Of a DNA stretch of 54,955 bases, positions 3,792-48,594 are shown one piece after another. The position numbers and the translations under genes were made by a program. A model generated the notes under the pieces. It saw only the letters and a program-made list of their open reading frames with translations. It made no database searches and was not told where the DNA came from. Positions within the stretch are counted from its first letter, which is position 1, and each line of letters opens with the position of its first letter. Source of the DNA: Acidobacterium sp. (GTDB taxonomy: Bacteria; Acidobacteriota; Vicinamibacteria; Vicinamibacterales; UBA2999); NCBI GenBank assembly GCA_002737365.1, contig NSIL01000016.1, forward strand, positions 1 through 54,955, in the 5' to 3' direction.

Positions 3792-3815
3792 GGCCGCACT
3801 AAAGTGCGGCCCTAC
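3792..3815. repeat. REP-like palindrome between ffh and rpsP
   Basis: The sequence GGCCGCACT-AA-AGTGCGGCC is a perfect 9-base inverted repeat with a 2-base centre, followed by CTAC (GTAG on the other strand). It lies in the only sizeable gap of the ffh-rpsP stretch, so a transcript would carry a hairpin there. It matches other palindromes of the same design in this window. No T-run follows, so a terminator role is unlikely. Confidence 0.8.
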
Positions 3816-14826: not shown

Positions 14827-14873
14827 GTAGGGTACCCCTTCATGGGGTGCCCTACAATGGGGTGCCCTACAAT
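14827..14873. repeat. REP-like palindrome plus 15-base direct repeat
   Basis: GTAGGGTACCCC (14827-14838) pairs with GGGGTGCCCTAC (14844-14855) with one mismatch, around a TTCAT centre. The right arm is then repeated in tandem: TGGGGTGCCCTACAA at 14843-14857 and 14858-14872. It sits in the divergent gap just upstream of ftcD. Confidence 0.75.
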
Positions 14874-21886: not shown

Positions 21887-22091
21887 GCTGCTCGATCAGT
21901 TGGTCGTCGAGATGGTCACCCGGGGCGTTCACTACACCGACGCGCAGCGCGAGTTCGACAAGCGCTTCATCAGCTGTGTCATCGAGAAACACGACGGCAA
22001 CCTGTGCAAGGCCGCCGACACCCTGGGCGTGCACCGCAACACCCTGACACGCAAGACCAAGCAGTTGCAGATTCGGGTCAGGGCGCTGTAG
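21879..22091 (+). CDS. Small Fis-type helix-turn-helix protein
   Basis: The protein has 70 residues. The C-terminal half is the Fis-type HTH seen in NtrC-family tails and in Fis (CKAADTLGVHRNTLTRKTKQL). The N-terminal helices (LLDQLVVEMVTRGVHYTDAQ) would form a dimer as in Fis. The start is a GTG overlapping the purC stop, which suggests coupling. It may be a nucleoid or local DNA-binding protein; its targets are unknown. Confidence 0.8.
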   Translation: MNKLLDQLVVEMVTRGVHYTDAQREFDKRFISCVIEKHDGNLCKAADTLGVHRNTLTRKTKQLQIRVRAL

Positions 22092-22206
22092 GCGCGACAC
22101 TGCGCGTCGGATAGGACGCCGGCTTTCGGCCGACGTGGGCCTCGCTTGCTTTGCTCGCAGCGGTGGGCGCCCGCGAAGGCAACTTGTCCGCCGTAACGGT
22201 CACGCA

Positions 22207-22409
22207 CGGTACGAACTTTCTTCACAACTGCGCCGCGCGGCGTCCTAGTTCCTGCGAACATCGTCGAGGGAACCCAACGCCAGTTTCCGAAGGAGTCATT
22301 TCGCTTCTGCAGCATCGGATCGGCCTCGCTGGCAGAGGTCGGGGATGGCCTACACGCTGCCCGCCGACTCGGGTATCTGACGGCCTGCCGCCCGGCACGG
22401 TCCGCCTAA
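22207..22409 (+). pseudogene. Decayed four-helix-bundle protein (23S IVS type)
   Basis: Two fragments in different frames match the family. The first (22207-22245) reads RYELSSQLRRAAS and meets TAG. The second (22248-22409) reads VPANIVEGTQRQFPKE, then SASLAEV, then LHAARRLGYLT. In intact members these are continuous (SQLRRAA..S.PANIAEG..., ...LGYL). The N-terminal helix and the last helix are missing. The stop lies inside a REP-like palindrome at 22400-22417. It is too degraded to be translated into a working protein. Confidence 0.75.
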
Positions 22410-22422
22410 AAGGGGACGCCAC
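22400..22422. repeat. Degenerate REP-like palindrome with GACGCCAC flank
   Basis: GTCCGCCT-AA-AAGGGGAC is an imperfect palindrome (two mismatches), followed by GCCAC so that GACGCCAC is formed as in the elements at 27433-27440 and 48587-48594. It ends the four-helix-bundle remnant. Confidence 0.6.
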
Positions 22423-22467
22423 ATCTGGGTCGAGGCCCCTGCCAGCCCGACCTTAAGCGAGAGCGGG

Positions 22468-22497
22468 TTGACGCCTTCCGGCCCCCTCCGCTATCAT
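22468..22497 (+). promoter_or_regulatory. Sigma70 promoter of groES-groEL
   Basis: TTGACG (22468-22473) and TATCAT (22492-22497) are separated by 18 bases. The transcript would start within the dyad that follows, leaving a leader of about 130 bases. Confidence 0.75.
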
Positions 22498-22523
22498 TAG
22501 CAGTCGTGCAACTCGACTGCTAG
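22497..22523 (+). promoter_or_regulatory. CIRCE-like HrcA operator (variant)
   Basis: TTAGCAGTC-N9-GACTGCTAG has the length, spacing and position of CIRCE (consensus TTAGCACTC-N9-GAGTGCTAA). The C-to-G and matching G-to-C changes preserve the dyad, which argues for a real, altered operator. It begins on the last base of the -10 box, where a repressor would block initiation. No hrcA gene is in the window. Confidence 0.8.
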
Positions 22524-22572
22524 CTGACAGAGCGGTCGACTGCCAACATTCGCGAGTGAAGCAACTAAGAAT

Positions 22573-22607
22573 GCGGCACGCAGGTGCCGCCCCGGCCGGA
22601 TGGCCGG
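22573..22607. repeat. Two palindromes in the groES leader
   Basis: GCGGCAC-GCAG-GTGCCGC (22573-22590) is a perfect 7-base stem. CCGGCC-GGAT-GGCCGG (22592-22607) is a second stem of 6. Both lie in the untranslated leader, 30-65 bases before the groES start. They may belong to the REP-like set or be RNA structures. Confidence 0.5.
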
Positions 22608-22637
22608 CCAACAACTAACAGACGGAGAGCAACACCT

Positions 22638-22940
22638 ATGGCTTTAAGACCGCTCCACGACCGCATCCTCGTGCAGCGCACTGAGGAAGAAGAACAGAAA
22701 GTTGGCGGCATCATCATCCCCGACTCGGCGAAAGAGAAGCCGCAGCAGGGCAAAGTGACGGCTGTCGGCGCTGGTAAGGCTGACAAAGACGGCAAGCGCA
22801 TTGCGCTCGACGTCAAGGAAGGCGACACCATCCTGTTCGGTAAGTACTCGGGGCAGGAAGTGCGTGTCGACGGCGAGGATTACCTCATCATGCGCGAGGA
22901 CGAAGTCCTGGCAGTGATCGAGGGCGGGAAAAAGAAGTAA
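22638..22940 (+). CDS. groS: Co-chaperonin GroES
   Basis: This 100-residue protein forms the heptameric lid of GroEL. The N-terminus [14 protein letters not shown] and the mobile loop region [18 protein letters not shown] are standard, as are [12 protein letters not shown] and the C-terminal [10 protein letters not shown] chose ATG at 22638, because GGAG lies about 10 bases upstream and the residues before it are not conserved. groEL follows after 18 bases. Confidence 0.97.
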
Positions 22941-24596
<1,656 letters not shown>

Positions 24597-24609
24597 GCAC
24601 CGCTTGCCG

Positions 24610-24645
24610 GTGCCTAAGGTGCCTCGTGTGCCTAAGGTGCCAAAG
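24610..24645. repeat. Four 9-base tandem repeats after groEL
   Basis: The units GTGCCTAAG, GTGCCTCGT, GTGCCTAAG and GTGCCAAAG lie back to back between the groEL stop and the terminator. Confidence 0.7.
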
Positions 24646-24655
24646 AGGAAACACC

Positions 24656-24693
24656 AAAGGGCCCGGGAGCGAAAGCTCCCGGGCCCTTTTTTT
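24656..24693. terminator. Rho-independent terminator of groESL, likely bidirectional
   Basis: A 15-base perfect stem (AAAGGGCCCGGGAGC pairing with its complement) closes a GAAA tetraloop and runs into seven T. It lies between groEL and the convergent prfC. The A-run on the left side would give a T-run for the opposite strand, so it can serve both genes. Confidence 0.95.
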
Positions 24694-24716
24694 GAATACG
24701 GATCCCGGATCCCGGC

Positions 24717-26315
<1,599 letters not shown>

Positions 26316-26339
26316 GCAAACTCATGGTACCTGACTTCC

Positions 26340-26361
26340 AGGCAACCCTGAAGGGTTGCCT
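26340..26361. repeat. REP-like palindrome between prfC and the TonB gene
   Basis: AGGCAACCCT-GA-AGGGTTGCCT is a perfect 10-base inverted repeat with a 2-base centre. It fills most of the 64-base gap and has no T-run. Confidence 0.8.
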
Positions 26362-26379
26362 CCACAGGGCCCGCGGCGC

Positions 26380-27270
26380 TCAGCGCAGCGTGAACGTCAG
26401 CTCGATCGTGATGATGACCGGTACCGGCTCGCCCTGTCGCAGGCCGGGACGGAAACGCCACATCTTGGCGGCCTTGACCGCTTCCTGGTCGAGGCCGAAA
26501 ATCGGGTCGAGCGAGCGCGTAACCTTGACCTCGCCGACCGAGCCGTCCGGCATCACGATGCACTCCAGCCACACCGAGCCCTGCACTTTCGCCCGCATGG
26601 CGTCGGCGGTGTAGGCCGGCTTCACTTCGCGCAAAACGACGGGCAGCGTGATACCTGCGCCCGGACGATAGGCGCCACCGCCCGTGCCGCCACCAAATCC
26701 AAGCCCGAGACCCGAACCCTGGCCGGACCCGACGCCCTGGCCGGTTCCGATACCGGCACCGCCGCCCGATCCAGAGCCCTGTGAGTCAGAGACCGCGGGC
26801 GCGCTGGGCGCGATGACGCCGGGCAACGTGATATCGGCCGAAGCCGTGGTCATCGCCGGAATGAGCGGTTCGGCCGGTGGCGGCTCTGGCTTGGGCGGCT
26901 CGGGCGTCGGCGTTGGGGTCTTCTCCACCGGGACGGTGATCTTGTCCTTGCCCGGCAGTTCCGCCTTGCGCGGCGGCTCAGGCGCCTTGTTGCCGCCGCC
27001 GCCACCACCACCGCCCGGGCCGGGCACGGCCAGCCAGACAATGTCGTTCACAGGCGCGTTGGGGATGAACTCGGCCAGGCTGGGCTGCGGCCCGAACCGA
27101 AGGGCCAGCAAGATGATGAGCGCGGCGGCAACGTGGGCTGCCACCGACGCACCCACGCCGACGCTGGATCGACGCCCTTCAAACGCAAAACTCAGCTCAA
27201 CCGGGCGGTCCGCGAGTTGCAACGGCGCCGATCGGGACTGATTTGCGGGAGCGGGTGACGACTCGGCCAT
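26380..27270 (-). CDS. TonB-type energy transducer
   Basis: The 296-residue protein has a cytoplasmic N-terminus, one membrane helix at about residues 44-60 (AAHVAAALIILLALRF), a Pro/Gly-rich periplasmic linker (TPTPTPEPPKPEPPPAEP, then long Gly stretches), and a C-terminal TonB fold (residues 215-296: LREVKPAYTADAMRAKVQG, VWLECIVMPDGSVGEVKV, then AVKAAKMWRFRPG). It couples inner-membrane energy to outer-membrane transport in known members. No exbB/exbD or receptor gene is adjacent. Confidence 0.88.
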   Translation of the reverse strand: MAESSPAPANQSRSAPLQLADRPVELSFAFEGRRSSVGVGASVAAHVAAALIILLALRFGPQPSLAEFIPNAPVNDIVWLAVPGPGGGGGGGGNKAPEPPRKAELPGKDKITVPVEKTPTPTPEPPKPEPPPAEPLIPAMTTASADITLPGVIAPSAPAVSDSQGSGSGGGAGIGTGQGVGSGQGSGLGLGFGGGTGGGAYRPGAGITLPVVLREVKPAYTADAMRAKVQGSVWLECIVMPDGSVGEVKVTRSLDPIFGLDQEAVKAAKMWRFRPGLRQGEPVPVIITIELTFTLR

Positions 27271-27387
27271 GGTGGTGCGTTTAATTGACCTACAGCCATT
27301 CTGACCGACGGGTTATGGGCTGACAAGCGCAAAGCCAGTGTCTGCCCCATTTGACGCCGATTGGGGCCAAATGGCTTCGGCTACACT

Positions 27388-27440
27388 GTAGCGTCTGCCT
27401 TCAGGCGGACTGTGCCGGTCCGGCTAAAGCCGGACGCCAC
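27388..27440. repeat. Tandem pair of REP-like palindromes
   Basis: GTCTGCCT-TC-AGGCGGAC (27393-27410, one mismatch) follows GTAGC. GTCCGGCT-AA-AGCCGGAC (27418-27435) is perfect and is followed by GCCAC. The pair shows the full design of the family: GTAG, palindrome, palindrome, GACGCCAC. It lies just upstream of the tatA promoter. Confidence 0.85.
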
Positions 27441-27448
27441 AGTTACCT

Positions 27449-27456
27449 GCTACAAT
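27449..27456 (+). promoter_or_regulatory. Candidate extended -10 for tatA
   Basis: TGCTACAAT-type box (TACAAT at 27451-27456, preceded by TG plus one base) lies 42 bases before the tatA start. The -35 is not recognisable. Confidence 0.4.
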
Positions 27457-27498
27457 CGCGGTTGCGGTCGCAGGTTGTCGTGACCCCAAGGAGCCTTC

Positions 27499-27666
27499 AT
27501 GCTTGGTTTGTTCGGCCCACTCGGAATGCCAGAAATGCTCATCATTCTGGCGATCGTGATCCTCATTTTTGGCGCCAACCGGCTGCCGGAGCTTGGCAAG
27601 GGCATCGGTCAGGGCATCAAGAACTTCAAGAGCGGAATGAAGCAAGAGAGCACGGACGAGAAGTAA
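27499..27666 (+). CDS. tatA: Twin-arginine translocase TatA/E
   Basis: This 55-residue protein has the TatA layout: a short N-terminal membrane helix ([20 protein letters not shown]), the FG hinge ([12 protein letters not shown]), and an amphipathic helix [14 protein letters not shown] with a charged tail. Known TatA proteins form the Tat pore for folded proteins. ATG at 27499 has AAGGAG six bases upstream. tatC is not in the window. The convergent selB stop lies 6 bases downstream. Confidence 0.9.
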
Positions 27667-27672
27667 TTCTCG

Positions 27673-29574
27673 CTAGATGACGAGGCGGGCATCACCGGTT
27701 CGCCTTGTCACGCGCTCCCGATCGAGGTACTCGAGCAGGGGAATCGCGAACTTTCTGGAGATTCCGTAACGGGCCTTGAACGCCGCCACGTCGACGGTCG
27801 CCTGTCCGCCCCCCTCTGATTTCATCCCCCGGACCTCATTCTTCAGCGCGTGCAAGGCGCCCGCATCGAAGACCAGCGTGTCAAGACGGACCAGCACCTT
27901 TTCGCGCAACAGGACCGCCGTGATCTTCTCGACCATCACCGCCGGCGCTCCCGCCGCCGCCTGCACCACGGCCGCGTCGGGCGGCTTGAGGCCGGCCGCC
28001 GCGTAAACTGACGCAATCGCAGCCTTGACCCTCGCGTCCTCACCGGTCGCGGCCACGGTGTGCGAAGCCAGCGCGAGCCGGTCGGCACCGACCAGCACCT
28101 TCGCCTTCTTCAGGTCATCAATGATGCGCTCGAACACGCCGGCATCGGCACGCGCCGAGACCCTCTCTCGCGCCTCCTCGCGAGGCAATCCGTCACTTAA
28201 TGGTTGGGCGCGATGAAAGGCTGTCACGAGCATCACCAGGGCATCCTTCGCGCCATCAAGATGTCGTGCCGCCACCAGCCGGTCGCCCACAGCCTCGATG
28301 CCCTGCAAGTGGATCGACGCCATCACGCCGCCCGTCGACTCGGGCGCCACTCCGGCACGCGCGACCAGCGCCTCGCGCGGCATGCCGGCCAGGCCGGCGG
28401 CGGTGACCATCGCCACCACCGCTTCGGACTCAGGACGCGACGCGCGACGGTCGACCGCCGCAAGGCATTGGAGGCCCTCGATCGAACGCACGCCGGGCCG
28501 CGTCGGCGCCGGGTCGAGCACGACGCCGCCGCCAATCGTGACCGGCGGTGAATAGGCCCGGATGATGAAGCGGTCGCCGCGCGTCAGCACCGCGGGCGAC
28601 TCGAGCCGCAGCCGAACGAACGCCCGCGTGCCCGTCGCGATCTCAGGCGCGATGCCCGCCACCGAGATGCGGGCCAGCACTTCGGCAGTGCCGTTATGCA
28701 CGCGCACGCGGGCGCCGTGCTTTAAGGACTTCGTCGTCGCCAGCAGATCGATCGCGGCATCGAACCGCCGGGTCACGCAGAGCGTTCCCAGCCCGGCCAG
28801 CGTCTCGCCGCGCCCGATCTGCCCCACCTCGATGCCGCCGAGATTGATGGCCGTCCGCTGCCCGGCCGATGCGAACGGCGCCGCCGTGCCGTGCACCTGG
28901 ATGCCGCGGATCTTGACGCGGCGGCCCGACGGCACGATCGCCAGCTCGTCGTCCAGGGCAATCCGCCCCGACACCAGGGTGCCGGTAATCACCGTACCGA
29001 ATCCCTTCATGGTGAAGGCTCGATCAATCGGCAGCCGCACCGAGCCAGTAACGGGACGACGCTCGATCCCGTTCGCCTGCGACACGATCGCAGCGCGCAA
29101 GGTGTCGAGCCCATCGCCCGTGGTGGCCGAGACCTCGATCACATCCGGCGACTCGAGAAACGAGCCCTTCACGAGCTCCGCCACATCCTGCCGGACCATG
29201 GCGCGCGTCTCGGCATCGGCCGCATCGGCCTTGGTGAGCACGACGATGCCGCGAGGAATCTGGAGCAGGCGGCAGATCTCGAAGTGCTCACGCGTCTGCG
29301 GCATCACCGACTCGTCGGCCGCGACGACCAGCAACACGCAATCGATGCCGCCAACCCCGGCCAGCATGGTGCGCACGAACCGCTCGTGTCCCGGCACGTC
29401 GACAAACGCGACCCGGTTCTCGCCGATGGCGGTGTGGGCGAACCCGAGCTCGATGGTGATGCCGCGGGCCTTCTCCTCTTTCAGCCGGTCGGGGTCGATA
29501 CCGGTCAGCGCGCGGACGAGCGTGCTCTTGCCGTGGTCAATGTGCCCGGCCGTGCCGACGACGAGGTTCGTCAT
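27673..29574 (-). CDS. selB: Selenocysteine-specific elongation factor SelB
   Basis: This 633-residue GTPase delivers Sec-tRNA to the ribosome at UGA codons with a SECIS hairpin. G1 is [14 protein letters not shown]3 is DVPGHERF, G4 is LTKAD. The C-terminal 250 residues are winged-helix repeats that bind SECIS RNA. Residues near 590-600 ([13 protein letters not shown]) form an odd polar insert between the last two winged helices. Its presence implies selenoprotein synthesis in this organism, though selA, selC, selD and a selenoprotein are not in the window. The start overlaps the rnr stop as ATGA. Confidence 0.94.
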
Positions 29575-31853
29575 CGCCGCTTCTTGGCCTTTCGCTCGTG
29601 CTTGCCGAGGCGTTGTTTCTTCGCGCGCCGCCGCTCTTCCGGCGTCCCCTTGCGCTGTTCTTTCTTCGGCCGCGCCGAACTGCGCTGCGGGCCGCGGCGG
29701 CGTTCATCCTGCCGCACCTTCGCCAGTACGTCCTCGAGACCCAGCTCAATCTGCCGGCGCTCCATGTCGACCTTGATGATCTGCACCTTGACGCGATCGC
29801 CCAGGCGATACAGCTTCTTGCTGTTCTCGCCAAACAGCGCGTGCTGCGTCTCCCGATAGCGGTAGTAATCGTCGGCCATCGTCGAGACGTGAACCAGGCC
29901 CTCGACGTAGTGCTCGACCAGCTCGACGAACATGCCGAACGGGGCGACGCCGGTGATGTAGCCGTCGAAGGTATCGCCGACCTTGTCGGCCATGAAGCGC
30001 ACCTTCTTCCATTGCAGAATCTCGCGCTCCGCTTCAGCGGCGCGGCGTTCCATCTCCGAGGTGTGCCGTCCTACTTCGGGCAGGTCCTCATCCAACTCCG
30101 CGCGGCGCTCGTCGCTGACCTTGGTGTGCCGCAGCTCGCGGAGCAGCCGGTGCACAATCAAGTCCGGGTAGCGGCGAATCGGTGAGGTGAAGTGCGTGTA
30201 GGTCTCGGCCGCCAGGCCGAAGTGGCCGACGTTGATCGGGTCGTAGCGGGCCTTCTGCATGGTCCGCAGCATCAGGAACGCAATTGGCCGCTCGGCCGGG
30301 TTGCCGCGAATCTTATCGACCAGCTTCTGAAAGTGCATCGGGGTGACGTTGCCGTCGGTCGCGCCCAGGCTGAAGCCAAACCCGCTGACGAACTCCTCGA
30401 ACTGCATCACCTTCAGCGGGTCAGGCTGTTCGTGGATGCGATAGAGCGCCGGCATGCCGTGCGACTCGAGATGACCGGCCACCGTTTCGTTGGCCAGCAG
30501 CATGAACTCCTCAATCAGCCGGTGCGCGACATTGCGTTCAGACGCGACGATGTTCGCGATGAAGCCGTCGTCGTCCAGCACCACCTGAGCTTCCGGCAGG
30601 TCGAAGTCGACCGACCCGCGCCGGTGACGCCGCCCGTTGAGAATCTCAAACAGCTGGCGCATCAGCTCGAACATCGGCACCAGCGGCTCGTGCTTCGCGA
30701 TCGTCACCGGATCGCGATCAGTGAGGATGGCGTTGACCGCGGTGTAGGTCATCCGCGCATCGCTGCGAATGATGCCATCGTGCATCTCGTGCCGCACCAC
30801 CTCGCCCTTGGTCGTGACCTCCATCAGGCACGACTGCACCAGGCGATTGACGTGCGGATTCAAGCTGCAGAGGCCAGTCGACAGCTCCGACGGAAACATG
30901 TGAATGGCGCGCTCCGGAAAATACACCGAAGTGCTGCGCTCGAAGGCTTCGGCGTCGAGCGCCGAGCCATCGTGAACGTAGTGCGAGACGTCGGCGATGT
31001 GCACACCCAGCCAGTAGTGCCCGTTCGGCAGCCGCTCAATTGAGATCGCATCGTCGAAGTCGCGCGCGGTCTCGCCGTCGATGGTCACCACGGTGCGGTC
31101 GCGGAAGTCGGTGCGGCCCGCCAGGTCTTTCTCACGCACGTTGCCGCCAATGCGGGTCGCCTCGGCCACGGCGTCAGCACCGTGTTGGTCGGGAATGCCG
31201 TGCTTGCGGAGGATGATCTCGGTGTCGACGCCGGGGTCATTGATGTCGCCCAGGATTTCGGTAATCCGCCCGGCCGGTCCACGCGTCGGGGTCGGCCAAC
31301 GGGTCACGGTGACGGTCACCATCTGCCCCGCCTCGGCCCCCATCGTCTCGTCGCGGGGAATCTGCACTTCGGTGGTGATTCGCTTGTCGAAGGGCACCAC
31401 GAAGGTGAGCCCGGTCGAGTCGAGGTCGAAGCGGCCGACGATGCTGCTGGCCGCGCGTTCGAGGACCTGGACGATCTTGCCTTCGGCCCGGCCGTCCTCG
31501 CGATGGCGCTCGATGCGGACGACGACGCGATCACCGTGCAAGGCTTCCTGCAGGTTGTGTGCGGCCACGACGATGTCGCGGGTCAGCCCTTCAACCGGAC
31601 GCTCGGGCGTGACGAAACCGACGCCCGACGAGTGGCCATCGAGCTTCCCGACCACCAGGTCCATGCGATCGGGCAGGCCGTAGAGCTTGCTCTTGACCAG
31701 GATCAGAGCGCCATCGTTGACCAGGTGCCGCAGTAGCCGCTTGAATGGCAGGCGCTCTTCGCGGCTGATCTCGAGCACGCGGTACAACTCGCGCGCAGTG
31801 GCCGGGTGCGGCACTTTGGCGCGCATGCGACGAAGCAGCTCTTCACGATTCAT
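29571..31853 (-). CDS. rnr: Ribonuclease R
   Basis: The 760-residue 3'-5' exoribonuclease has an N-terminal winged helix, two cold-shock domains, the RNB catalytic domain ([18 protein letters not shown], with the metal-binding aspartates; [17 protein letters not shown]), an S1 domain ([25 protein letters not shown]) and a very basic Lys/Arg tail ([20 protein letters not shown]). It degrades structured RNA and helps RNA quality control. It is coupled to glycerate kinase upstream and selB downstream. Confidence 0.95.
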
Positions 31854-33115
31854 GACATCACTATGACTTGTAGATCGCCGACGTTGGTCTCGGTGCGTCC
31901 AAGGCGAATCGCGTCGTCCAGCGGCGCAAAGAACGCCAACGAGTTGTTGGTGGCCAGATAATCGGCCGGACTCTGCAATCCCGCCTCTGCCGCCCTGGCT
32001 CGCGTCGTTGAGTCGACGATCGCGCCTGCTACGCCCGATGAGCCGTCGATGCCATCGGTCCCGATGCTGGCGGCCGCCACGCAGGGCCTTTCGTAGCGCC
32101 CCACTTCAGTGGGGTCGCCGGGGTCAGCAATCGCCTCCACAATCGACAACACAAACTCAAGGTTACGCCCACCGAGGCCATTCCCCGTCACGCGGACCGT
32201 GGTTTCGCCGCCCGAGATAACACACACCGGCCGGGCCATGCCCACGGATACGTGCCGGGCTCGCTCGAGCCAGGCGGGACCGGCCAGCTTCGCCTCGCCC
32301 ACGACTGGCTCCGCCATGGTGACCACGGTGTAGCCAAGCGCCTCGGCCGCCGCTTGCGCGCCGGCCATGGCATCCAGCCGGCCACCGATCACACGCGCCA
32401 TCGTCCGAGTCAAGGCCGCGTGCCCGGGCAAGGGCGTATCGGGAATCTCGCCGGCAAGACCGCGCCGAATCACGGCGCGCACGGCAGCCAGGTGTTCGGG
32501 ACCGCCAAAGCAATCCAGTGCGGCGGCCGCATCCGTCCAGGTCGTGCTGTCCGCAACACCAGGGCCCGATCCGATGGCATTCAAGTTATCGCCGACCACG
32601 TCCGACAACGCCAGCGTCATCGTGGTGCCGACGCATGCCGCGGCGAGCCGTCCCCCCTTCACCCTCGACAGGTGACGACGCACTGTGTTCAGCGCGTGGA
32701 TGTCGGCGCCCGCGTTCATCATCAGCCGGGTGGTGGATACCTTATCTGCCAGACTGATGCCCTCAACCGGCAACGCCATCAGCGCCGACGCGCCACCGGA
32801 CAGCAGAATGAGCAGCACCTCGCCCGAGTGGACGGACTCGGCGATGGCGAGGGCCGTGCGACCGGCTACCTCGCTGCGGGCGTCGGGAAACGGGTGGCCG
32901 GATTCAATCCAATCCACGCCATCGGGCAGCGCCTGGGCGGCGTGAGTCCCGATCGCCATGGCCTGTCGCACGGTGAGGCCCGGCACGGCCACTAACGCCG
33001 CCGCCATCGGCGCTGCCGCTTTGCCGACGGCCAGCACATGCAACGGCCGCGTGGTCAGGATCTCGGCCAGATCACGGTCGGCCATGGCCCGTTCGACCAC
33101 ACGGGAGGCACTCAC
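31850..33115 (-). CDS. Glycerate 2-kinase (GckA/TtuD family)
   Basis: The enzyme phosphorylates glycerate. Signs are LAVGKAAAPMA, SGGASALMALP, ALSDVVGDNLNAIGSGP, ISGGETTVRVTGNGLGGRNLE and ASIGTDGIDGSSG. The GTG at 33115 is the only ordinary start, but the conserved N-terminal helix (LKQDLFTIVRAGIDAV) lies upstream of it in the same frame. A CTG at 33181 that forms CTGA with the upstream stop is the best start (about 443 residues). See findings. Neighbours are unrelated. Confidence 0.9.
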   Translation of the reverse strand: MSASRVVERAMADRDLAEILTTRPLHVLAVGKAAAPMAAALVAVPGLTVRQAMAIGTHAAQALPDGVDWIESGHPFPDARSEVAGRTALAIAESVHSGEVLLILLSGGASALMALPVEGISLADKVSTTRLMMNAGADIHALNTVRRHLSRVKGGRLAAACVGTTMTLALSDVVGDNLNAIGSGPGVADSTTWTDAAAALDCFGGPEHLAAVRAVIRRGLAGEIPDTPLPGHAALTRTMARVIGGRLDAMAGAQAAAEALGYTVVTMAEPVVGEAKLAGPAWLERARHVSVGMARPVCVISGGETTVRVTGNGLGGRNLEFVLSIVEAIADPGDPTEVGRYERPCVAAASIGTDGIDGSSGVAGAIVDSTTRARAAEAGLQSPADYLATNNSLAFFAPLDDAIRLGRTETNVGDLQVIVMS

Positions 33116-44014: not shown

Positions 44015-44021
44015 TCAGGAG

Positions 44022-44074
44022 GGCGGCACCGCGGTGCCGCCGAGTCGAGTGCCAAAAGGGCGGCACTTTAGTGC
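44022..44074. repeat. REP-like palindromes between fusion protein and pump
   Basis: GGCGGCACC-GC-GGTGCCGCC (44022-44041) is a perfect 9-base stem, and GCACT-TT-AGTGC (44063-44074) is a second palindrome of the CTTTAG-type. Together they occupy the 99-base intergenic gap. Confidence 0.75.
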
Positions 44075-44113
44075 AGACAATTCGCAAATGTCAGTCGCTC
44101 AGTCGAGACCAAT

Positions 44114-48563: not shown

Positions 48564-48594
48564 GTAGCATCCGTCTTTAGGCGGATGACGCCAC
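48564..48594. repeat. REP-like palindrome with GTAG and GACGCCAC flanks
   Basis: CATCCGTCT-TT-AGGCGGATG (48568-48587, one mismatch) is preceded by GTAG and followed by ACGCCAC, forming GACGCCAC. It lies in the 106-base gap between the ABC permease and the TraR gene. Confidence 0.8.

Follow-up and report, generated by a model that had tools for sequence, protein, structure and literature searches.

REP systems described so far

GTAG REPs follow a structural rule (PMC6006769): their stem is fully paired over at least 7 and closed by a loop of 2-5 nt, and the tetranucleotide GTAG or GTGG precedes it on the 5' side at a distance of 0-2 nt. The biochemistry of TnpAREP indicates that GTAG acts in cleavage and that loop positions are critical in both group 3 systems (PMC8266576). 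From Acidobacteria TIRYT genes are recorded (PMC3733652, PMC6006769), the phylum is mentioned in connection with class 3, another class of these enzymes (PMC6006769), and RepRanger tabulates three Acidobacteriota species (PMC12306157). Here and below, statements on these papers refer to the parts on which we draw. Vicinamibacterales are not named in those parts of PMC3733652. The RepRanger text contains neither 'Vicinamib' nor 'Luteitalea' (PMC12306157), and in the announcement of Luteitalea TBR-22 the term 'palindromic repeat' appears once, among the references, where it refers to a CRISPR tool (PMC8852301). Among the matches listed in our literature search there was no publication on REPs in Vicinamibacterales, and GTAG REP/RAYT systems are a known kind; thus, we take the REPs reported here as new and their kind as known.

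The window is the whole stretch of DNA which was analysed, 54,955 nt long. It belongs to a Vicinamibacterales assembly of 3.05 Mb in 54 contigs which is 97.08% complete. The palindromes in this window are real and they are REP elements. Very probably, REPs and REPIN pairs alike are non-autonomous single-stranded DNA hairpins with a 5' GTRG tag which are spread in trans by a RAYT (TnpAREP).

REP classes in the window

The first-pass annotation had listed ten palindromes, and all ten are found where it placed them. They fall into four classes, A through D. The class A consensus is GTRGYGTCCGSCTTYAGSCGGAC, class B is the 26-mer GTGGSGACAAACCTTYAGGTTTGTCS, and the class C pattern is GGAGGGCGGCAC-N4-GTGCCGCC. 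The sites are:

3792-3815, minus strand: class C REP GTAGGGCCGCACTTTAGTGCGGCC, matching the class C pattern; fold z -6.0
14827-14873, no strand assigned: class D REP (GTAGGGTACCCC-TTCAT-GGGGTGCCCTAC) with its right part repeated; class by eye; fold z -2.97
22400-22422, minus strand: single class A REP, GTGG foot, 2 mismatches
22568-22591, plus strand: degenerate class C REP, 3 mismatches (22573 in the first-pass annotation)
26340-26365, minus strand: class B-like REP GTGGAGGCAACCCTTCAGGGTTGCCT, 10-bp perfect stem, CTTCAG apex; class by eye
27388-27410, plus strand: class A REP unit, left half of an inverted pair, GTAG foot, 1 mismatch to the class A consensus
27418-27440, minus strand: class A REP unit, right half of the inverted pair, GTGG foot, class A consensus matched exactly
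27388-27440, no strand assigned: REPIN-type inverted pair with outward tags, two 23-nt units folding as one hairpin
44018-44041, plus strand: class C REP, GGAG foot, apex CGCG rather than CTTYAG; class C arms with 0 mismatches
44059-44078, plus strand: probable decayed class C copy (GGCGGCACTTTAGTGCAGAC), by eye (44063 in the first-pass annotation)
48564-48594, plus strand: class A REP (unit 48564-48586, 3 mismatches) plus the foot of an inverted partner (GACGCCAC)

Classes A, B and C possess a common apex, CTTYAG, and different stems. The annotation had seen a single family with a constant frame. Instead, there are at least four classes, class C mostly carries a GGAG or GAAG foot, and the CTTYAG apex is as constant as the GTAG foot. 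A left GTAG and a right GACGCCAC, which had been described as shared, are both present, yet they are one feature on two strands, as reverse-complementing GTGGCGTC, with which class A begins, gives GACGCCAC. Units of classes A and B comply with the structural rule for GTAG REPs; class C mostly fails in the tetranucleotide. Against CTTYAG as a universal apex stand the class C copy at 44018 and class D, which has other loops. The site at 48564-48594 looks, judged by its sequence, like a collapsed REP pair. A class A variant with stem CTCCGGC and foot GTAGC (G000:C1:33776-33798) may be a sub-class; a further copy is at C1:67443, and pattern matches are on C17 and C22.

The inverted pair at 27388-27440 consists of GTAGCGTCTGCCTTCAGGCGGAC on the plus strand and GTGGCGTCCGGCTTTAGCCGGAC on the minus strand, separated by 7 nt. 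Folded as single-stranded DNA the left unit forms a stem-loop with z -2.45 and the right unit one with z -4.29. Two inverted units which make one hairpin define a REPIN, and the entire pair folds in this manner (z -3.07). By Pfam, it is flanked by divergent genes, one with a TonB_C domain (26380-27270, minus strand) and one of TatA type (27499-27666, plus strand); the next neighbours outward are RF3-type and SelB-type genes. The class B-like unit 26340-26365 sits between the RF3-type gene (24717-26315, minus strand) and the TonB_C-domain gene. Directly downstream of the pair, ahead of the TatA-type gene, is a conserved GCTACAAT box, and this proximity means that the pair might affect expression of that gene. 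Two boxes, TTTGACG and GCTACAAT, are conserved upstream of the TatA-type gene (window 27330-27470, loci L132-L138). They are separated by whichever insert occupies the gap, and their spacing varies among species.

Two further hairpins of the window are recorded here for completeness. One, at 32093, had not been listed; it falls within an ORF of 421 aa that has two Pfam domains, and may be a chance occurrence. At 24656-24689 there is a 15-bp perfect hairpin with T's behind it; this strong terminator-like site has no relation to the REPs.

Tests against chance

In a GC-rich genome palindromes may arise by chance, and some of our own counts have to be read in this light. Several raw pattern matches were random, 49 vs. 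16 in the control and 178 vs. 123. Hairpins with a GTRG foot alone numbered 33 vs. 7 in one Markov set, and other feet gave 25 (GA[TC]G), 12, 15, 6, 13, 1, 9 and 6. The GTRG foot alone is a weak test, therefore apex tests were used.

Different pictures emerge with stricter patterns. GTAG REPs occur in many dispersed copies. In the 3.05-Mb assembly the exact class A consensus is present in 28 copies, the reversed pattern in 0; exact class B is present in 15. Allowing up to 3 mismatches, the window contains 4 class A matches, as compared with 0 in 100 shuffles, and 3 matches to the class C pattern, as compared with a mean of 0.04 in 100 shuffles. The apex scan covered 455 kb of the genome, i.e., the window plus 400 kb. 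With no foot required, perfect stems of 8 bp or more which end in the CTTYAG apex were found 17 times; seven control apexes yielded 0, 0, 0, 1, 1, 0 and 0. On reading, 6 of the 17 belong to class A, 4 to class B, 6 to class C and 1 to none of these. Their feet are GTRG in classes A and B, with one class B copy pairing into its foot, whereas of the six class C feet four are GGAG, one of these being in a shifted register, and the other two are GAAG and GTAG. When CTTYAG was combined with a GTRG foot and a stem of at least 7, 14 hairpins were obtained in the 455 kb and 0 in each of ten first-order Markov sequences; control feet gave 0, 1, 0, 7 and 0. Examination of the 7, all with GG[AT]G, identified one class A and one class B unit out of register, four class C units and one unrelated hairpin, and this is how the GGAG foot of class C was recognised. 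Chance is refuted as the origin of classes A and B; for class C the apex test refutes it as well. For the repeats as a whole its probability is close to nil. The genome-wide scan which the annotation had proposed thus shows an excess of palindromes over the controls.

Spread across the order

Exact class A copies are present in 45 of 162 genomes of Vicinamibacterales, the control match in none of the 162. The highest number is 477 (G028). Exact class B is restricted to 6 of the 162 genomes, all of the same genus as ours, with 0 for the control. By these exact counts the two classes are unevenly distributed among the relatives: class A has 181 copies in G004, 114 in G005, 3 in G001 and 1 in G002, and class B has 4, 3, 74 and 105 copies in the same genomes.

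Other hairpin populations were encountered next to Y1 transposases. In G008, a member of the genus, five GTAG|CGACGGCT-aa-AGCCGTCG hairpins adjoin such a gene (L087, G008:C10:44000-47300, positions 914-1358); they constitute another REP class with an AA loop. In G026 a regular array of GTAGGGACGGCTC-TCY-GAGCCGTCC hairpins with a period of mostly 56 bp lies by a Y1 transposase (L078, G026:C1:3998955-4002137, positions 484-1214).

RAYT genes in relatives and the single Y1 transposase of the genome

The RAYT of G028 has matches at E 0.001 in 96 of the 162 genomes, many of them distant, including the one in our assembly (L031). Hairpins were counted at 30 RAYT loci, which are a part of these matches. 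A GTRG hairpin is located within 350 bp at 22 of the 30 loci and on both sides at 16; the 8 loci without one count against the RAYT reading. In 25-bp bins there were 107 GTRG hairpins near the genes vs. 6 in the larger control zone of 700-1400 bp, and control feet near the genes numbered 8, 2, 22 and 16. Class A units are on both sides of the RAYT in G006 (L116) and in G028 (L101), i.e., in these and other relatives RAYTs are flanked by the very same repeats. All three class A RAYTs tested, which come from G006, G005 and G028, exceed the 80-bit cut-off of the NCBI RAYT model NF047646, with scores of 89.9, 84.3 and 90.5. The G006 protein matches the solved TnpArep chain 4er8_A (E 4.2e-7), and the HxH motif and one Tyr are invariant in 11 aligned proteins.

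Further RAYTs of the order are accompanied by other stems, GGCAACCCT, GCAGCCCT, CGGCGGGGCT, GGGCCGGCT and more, of which several keep a T-TY-A apex; the hairpins at L122, L124 and L125 have longer loops. On a tree rooted at its midpoint and without support values, the loci with a TCCGSCT stem, 12 of 12, are confined to one half, which also holds L105, L106 and L110 with other stems and L112 with no hairpin. For classes B and C no RAYT was found, a further point against the RAYT reading. As candidates for class B we considered three Y1 genes of G001 and G002. They were rejected because the class B copies near them are about 0.7-0.8 kb past the stop codon and not adjacent.

What is the situation in the genome itself? 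A search of the assembly with PF01797 (Y1_Tnp) at E 0.001 returned one match, L031, and the G028 RAYT as a query returned the same gene alone. The RAYT loci L113, L114 and L116 had no match in 455 kb of the genome. The L031 gene (positions 1462-2070 of G000:C21:5675-9010) has apparent inverted repeats on both sides, seen by eye, GCTTCACTTT... and ...AAAGTGAAGC. One might consider the palindromes as MITE-like derivatives of this transposase with its inverted ends, since the assembly has no other Y1_Tnp match and the protein attains 64.8 bits to the RAYT model, below the cut-off of 80. Yet its 3.3-kb locus contains no GTNG-footed hairpin scoring at least 6.5, by eye its inverted flank does not resemble the REP classes of the genome, and its protein is only 18% identical to the class A RAYT of G006. 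We consider a derivation from L031 highly improbable.

The assembly contains no RAYT with matching REPs, and the lack of a cognate RAYT in the same genome counts against the RAYT reading. The REPs therefore look orphaned; at 97.08% completeness in 54 contigs a RAYT in an assembly gap is also possible. The annotation had suggested a RAYT-type enzyme as the mover. Cognate RAYTs, flanked by class A, were found in relatives, and our assembly has just the distant L031. In this genome the elements look like passengers, with a mover which is absent or missing from the assembly. The class A population would then be the leftover of a RAYT which has since been lost, or its RAYT would reside in a gap.

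Gain and loss between species

In the species tree (FastTree, 6374 columns) our genome pairs with G006 (support 1.000), followed by G004 (1.000) and G005 (0.986). The syntenic comparison took in 12 sites, and presence and absence at orthologous sites were observed among the relatives. The 27388 pair is present in our genome, G004 and G005, and absent in G003, G007 and G008, G001 being outside the comparison; at the same gap G002 has a class D REP and G006 another palindromic insert. C12:116829 is shared by our genome, G004 and G005 (with extra copies). G006 and G008 lack it, it was unseen in G002 and G007, and in G001 a different GTAG hairpin is at this spot. On the species tree, class A pairs which are common to our genome, G004 and G005 and missing in the sister G006 imply either an old insertion that G006 has lost or a spot that was used more than once.

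The class B pair C12:118720 is present in our genome, and G002 has a partly decayed copy, recognised by eye. G004, G005, G006 and G008 lack the pair, and G007 aligns poorly. The class D hairpin at 14827 is found in our genome, G006 and G008, and in a degenerate form in G005; G001, G002 and G004 have a short gap which retains CTACAAT, and G003 and G007 align poorly. The unit at 22573 has no counterpart in G002, G003, G004, G006 and G008; G005 and G007 have long unalignable gaps. At 26348 (unit 26340-26365) the element is absent in G008, and a longer insert is present in G002, G003, G004, G006 and G007. At C1:33776 G004 carries a related unit (by eye) and G006 another palindrome; neither G005 nor G008 has such a unit. 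At C1:32843 our genome, G004 and G006 have class B-type units; G005 has a different GTAG hairpin there, and the one in G008 is degenerate. C1:25540 is without such a unit in G008, with longer or ambiguous inserts elsewhere. Alignments at C1:23023, 22400 and C12:111989 were long, poor or without anchors.

Two results count against the RAYT reading: no fresh insertion was seen in the two class A pairs compared in detail, and no clear signal of a cleavage site emerged from the dinucleotides next to 76 class A units. We also considered that the GTAG foot is a pre-existing target, as the empty sites at 14827 in G001, G002 and G004 already hold CTACAAT. This was rejected as a general explanation because the empty sites at 27388 and C12:116829 show no GTAG at the foot positions (by eye).

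The syntenic check suggested by the annotation was carried out with the result that positions vary among relatives. With numerous repeats, class A units beside RAYTs in relatives and variable positions, neither of the two outcomes which the annotation had named as contrary to its proposal, lack of excess or lack of variability, was observed. Its assignment to a REP/RAYT or MITE family was right in category as to REP/RAYT, on grounds of copy number, RAYT flanks in relatives and variable positions; several classes take the place of the one family.

A different view is that the hairpins are regulatory RNA or DNA elements, e.g., terminators, mRNA stabilisers, or sites for supercoiling or protein binding, and that their number is set by selection on the host instead of mobility. 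According to the ORF list of the window alone the REP sites fall between long ORFs, in agreement with the annotation, which had placed them outside intact coding sequence, and such intergenic hairpins would suit this view. Regulatory roles have been hypothesised for REPs elsewhere (PMC3733652), the 27388 pair immediately precedes the conserved box of the TatA-type gene, and within 22000-30000 the degenerate class C unit (22573-22590) is predicted to be terminator-like on the minus strand. However, none of the other REP units in the same interval, three of class A and one class B-like, is predicted to be terminator-like, no Rfam family matches in the window at gathering thresholds, and position and class differ among species at the same gap. 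A purely regulatory account thus appears improbable. Individual copies may have been co-opted, which is compatible with a mobile origin, and we retain the reading as RAYT-mobilised REPs.

A possible mode of recognition

RAYTs are single-strand transposases, kin to IS200/IS605, which would act on REPs in trans. By homology and in analogy to the TnpAREP biochemistry a RAYT would bind the single-stranded hairpin via foot and apex, cut at a short adjoining site and join the hairpin elsewhere. The RAYTs of the order may recognise the hairpin by the kept apex (CTTYAG, A-C) and by the foot, usually GTRG, with the stem being class-specific. A constant apex above different stems fits recognition by foot plus apex, and is no proof of it.

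Tentatively, and with considerable doubt on our part, one may go further: in Vicinamibacterales the CTTYAG apex with a loose foot (GTRG or GGAG) may be a class-independent signal, while the stems drift or are exchanged. One RAYT could then cross-mobilise several classes, or classes could outlive their RAYT, and the same promoter gaps would be refilled by different classes.

The data contribute several classes of REP from a little-studied order of Acidobacteria, together with a large natural collection of RAYTs paired with REPs. With these it should be simple to test whether a RAYT reads the foot, the apex or the stem of its hairpin. It also supplies cases of gain, loss and class replacement in one intergenic gap.

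Comparison with known systems

L031 appears to resemble the TIRYTs in being a Y1 transposase with apparent terminal inverted repeats (by eye) and no REPs (PMC3733652, PMC6006769). As far as tested, it is not the mover of the REPs in the window, and in this respect the parallel ends.

With REPINs, as described in the parts of PMC3116915 cited here, the inverted pairs share the combination of two inverted REPs into one hairpin. They differ in that many units in our genome are single and that 28 exact units make a small population.

Group 3 TnpAREP of Stenotrophomonas and Marinomonas likewise act on REPs which are perfect palindromes (PMC8266576). The Marinomonas REP has the loop TTTA, and the class A loop is TTTA or TTCA between C and G. 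In contrast to these systems, we have several stem classes with one apex, known from sequence alone.

The closest likeness is with the GTAG REP super-family (Di Nocera 2013, PMC3733652), compared here by its written description. Common to both are a 5' GTAG/GTGG tag, a short perfect stem, a very short loop which often is TY, single units next to inverted dimers, several classes per genome, and RAYT genes flanked by REPs. The GGAG foot of class C is outside the degenerations given for the super-family in the parts cited (GYAG, GYRG, GTRG and GTMG). The other difference from that description is that in this genome the classes share the CTTYAG apex across unlike stems.
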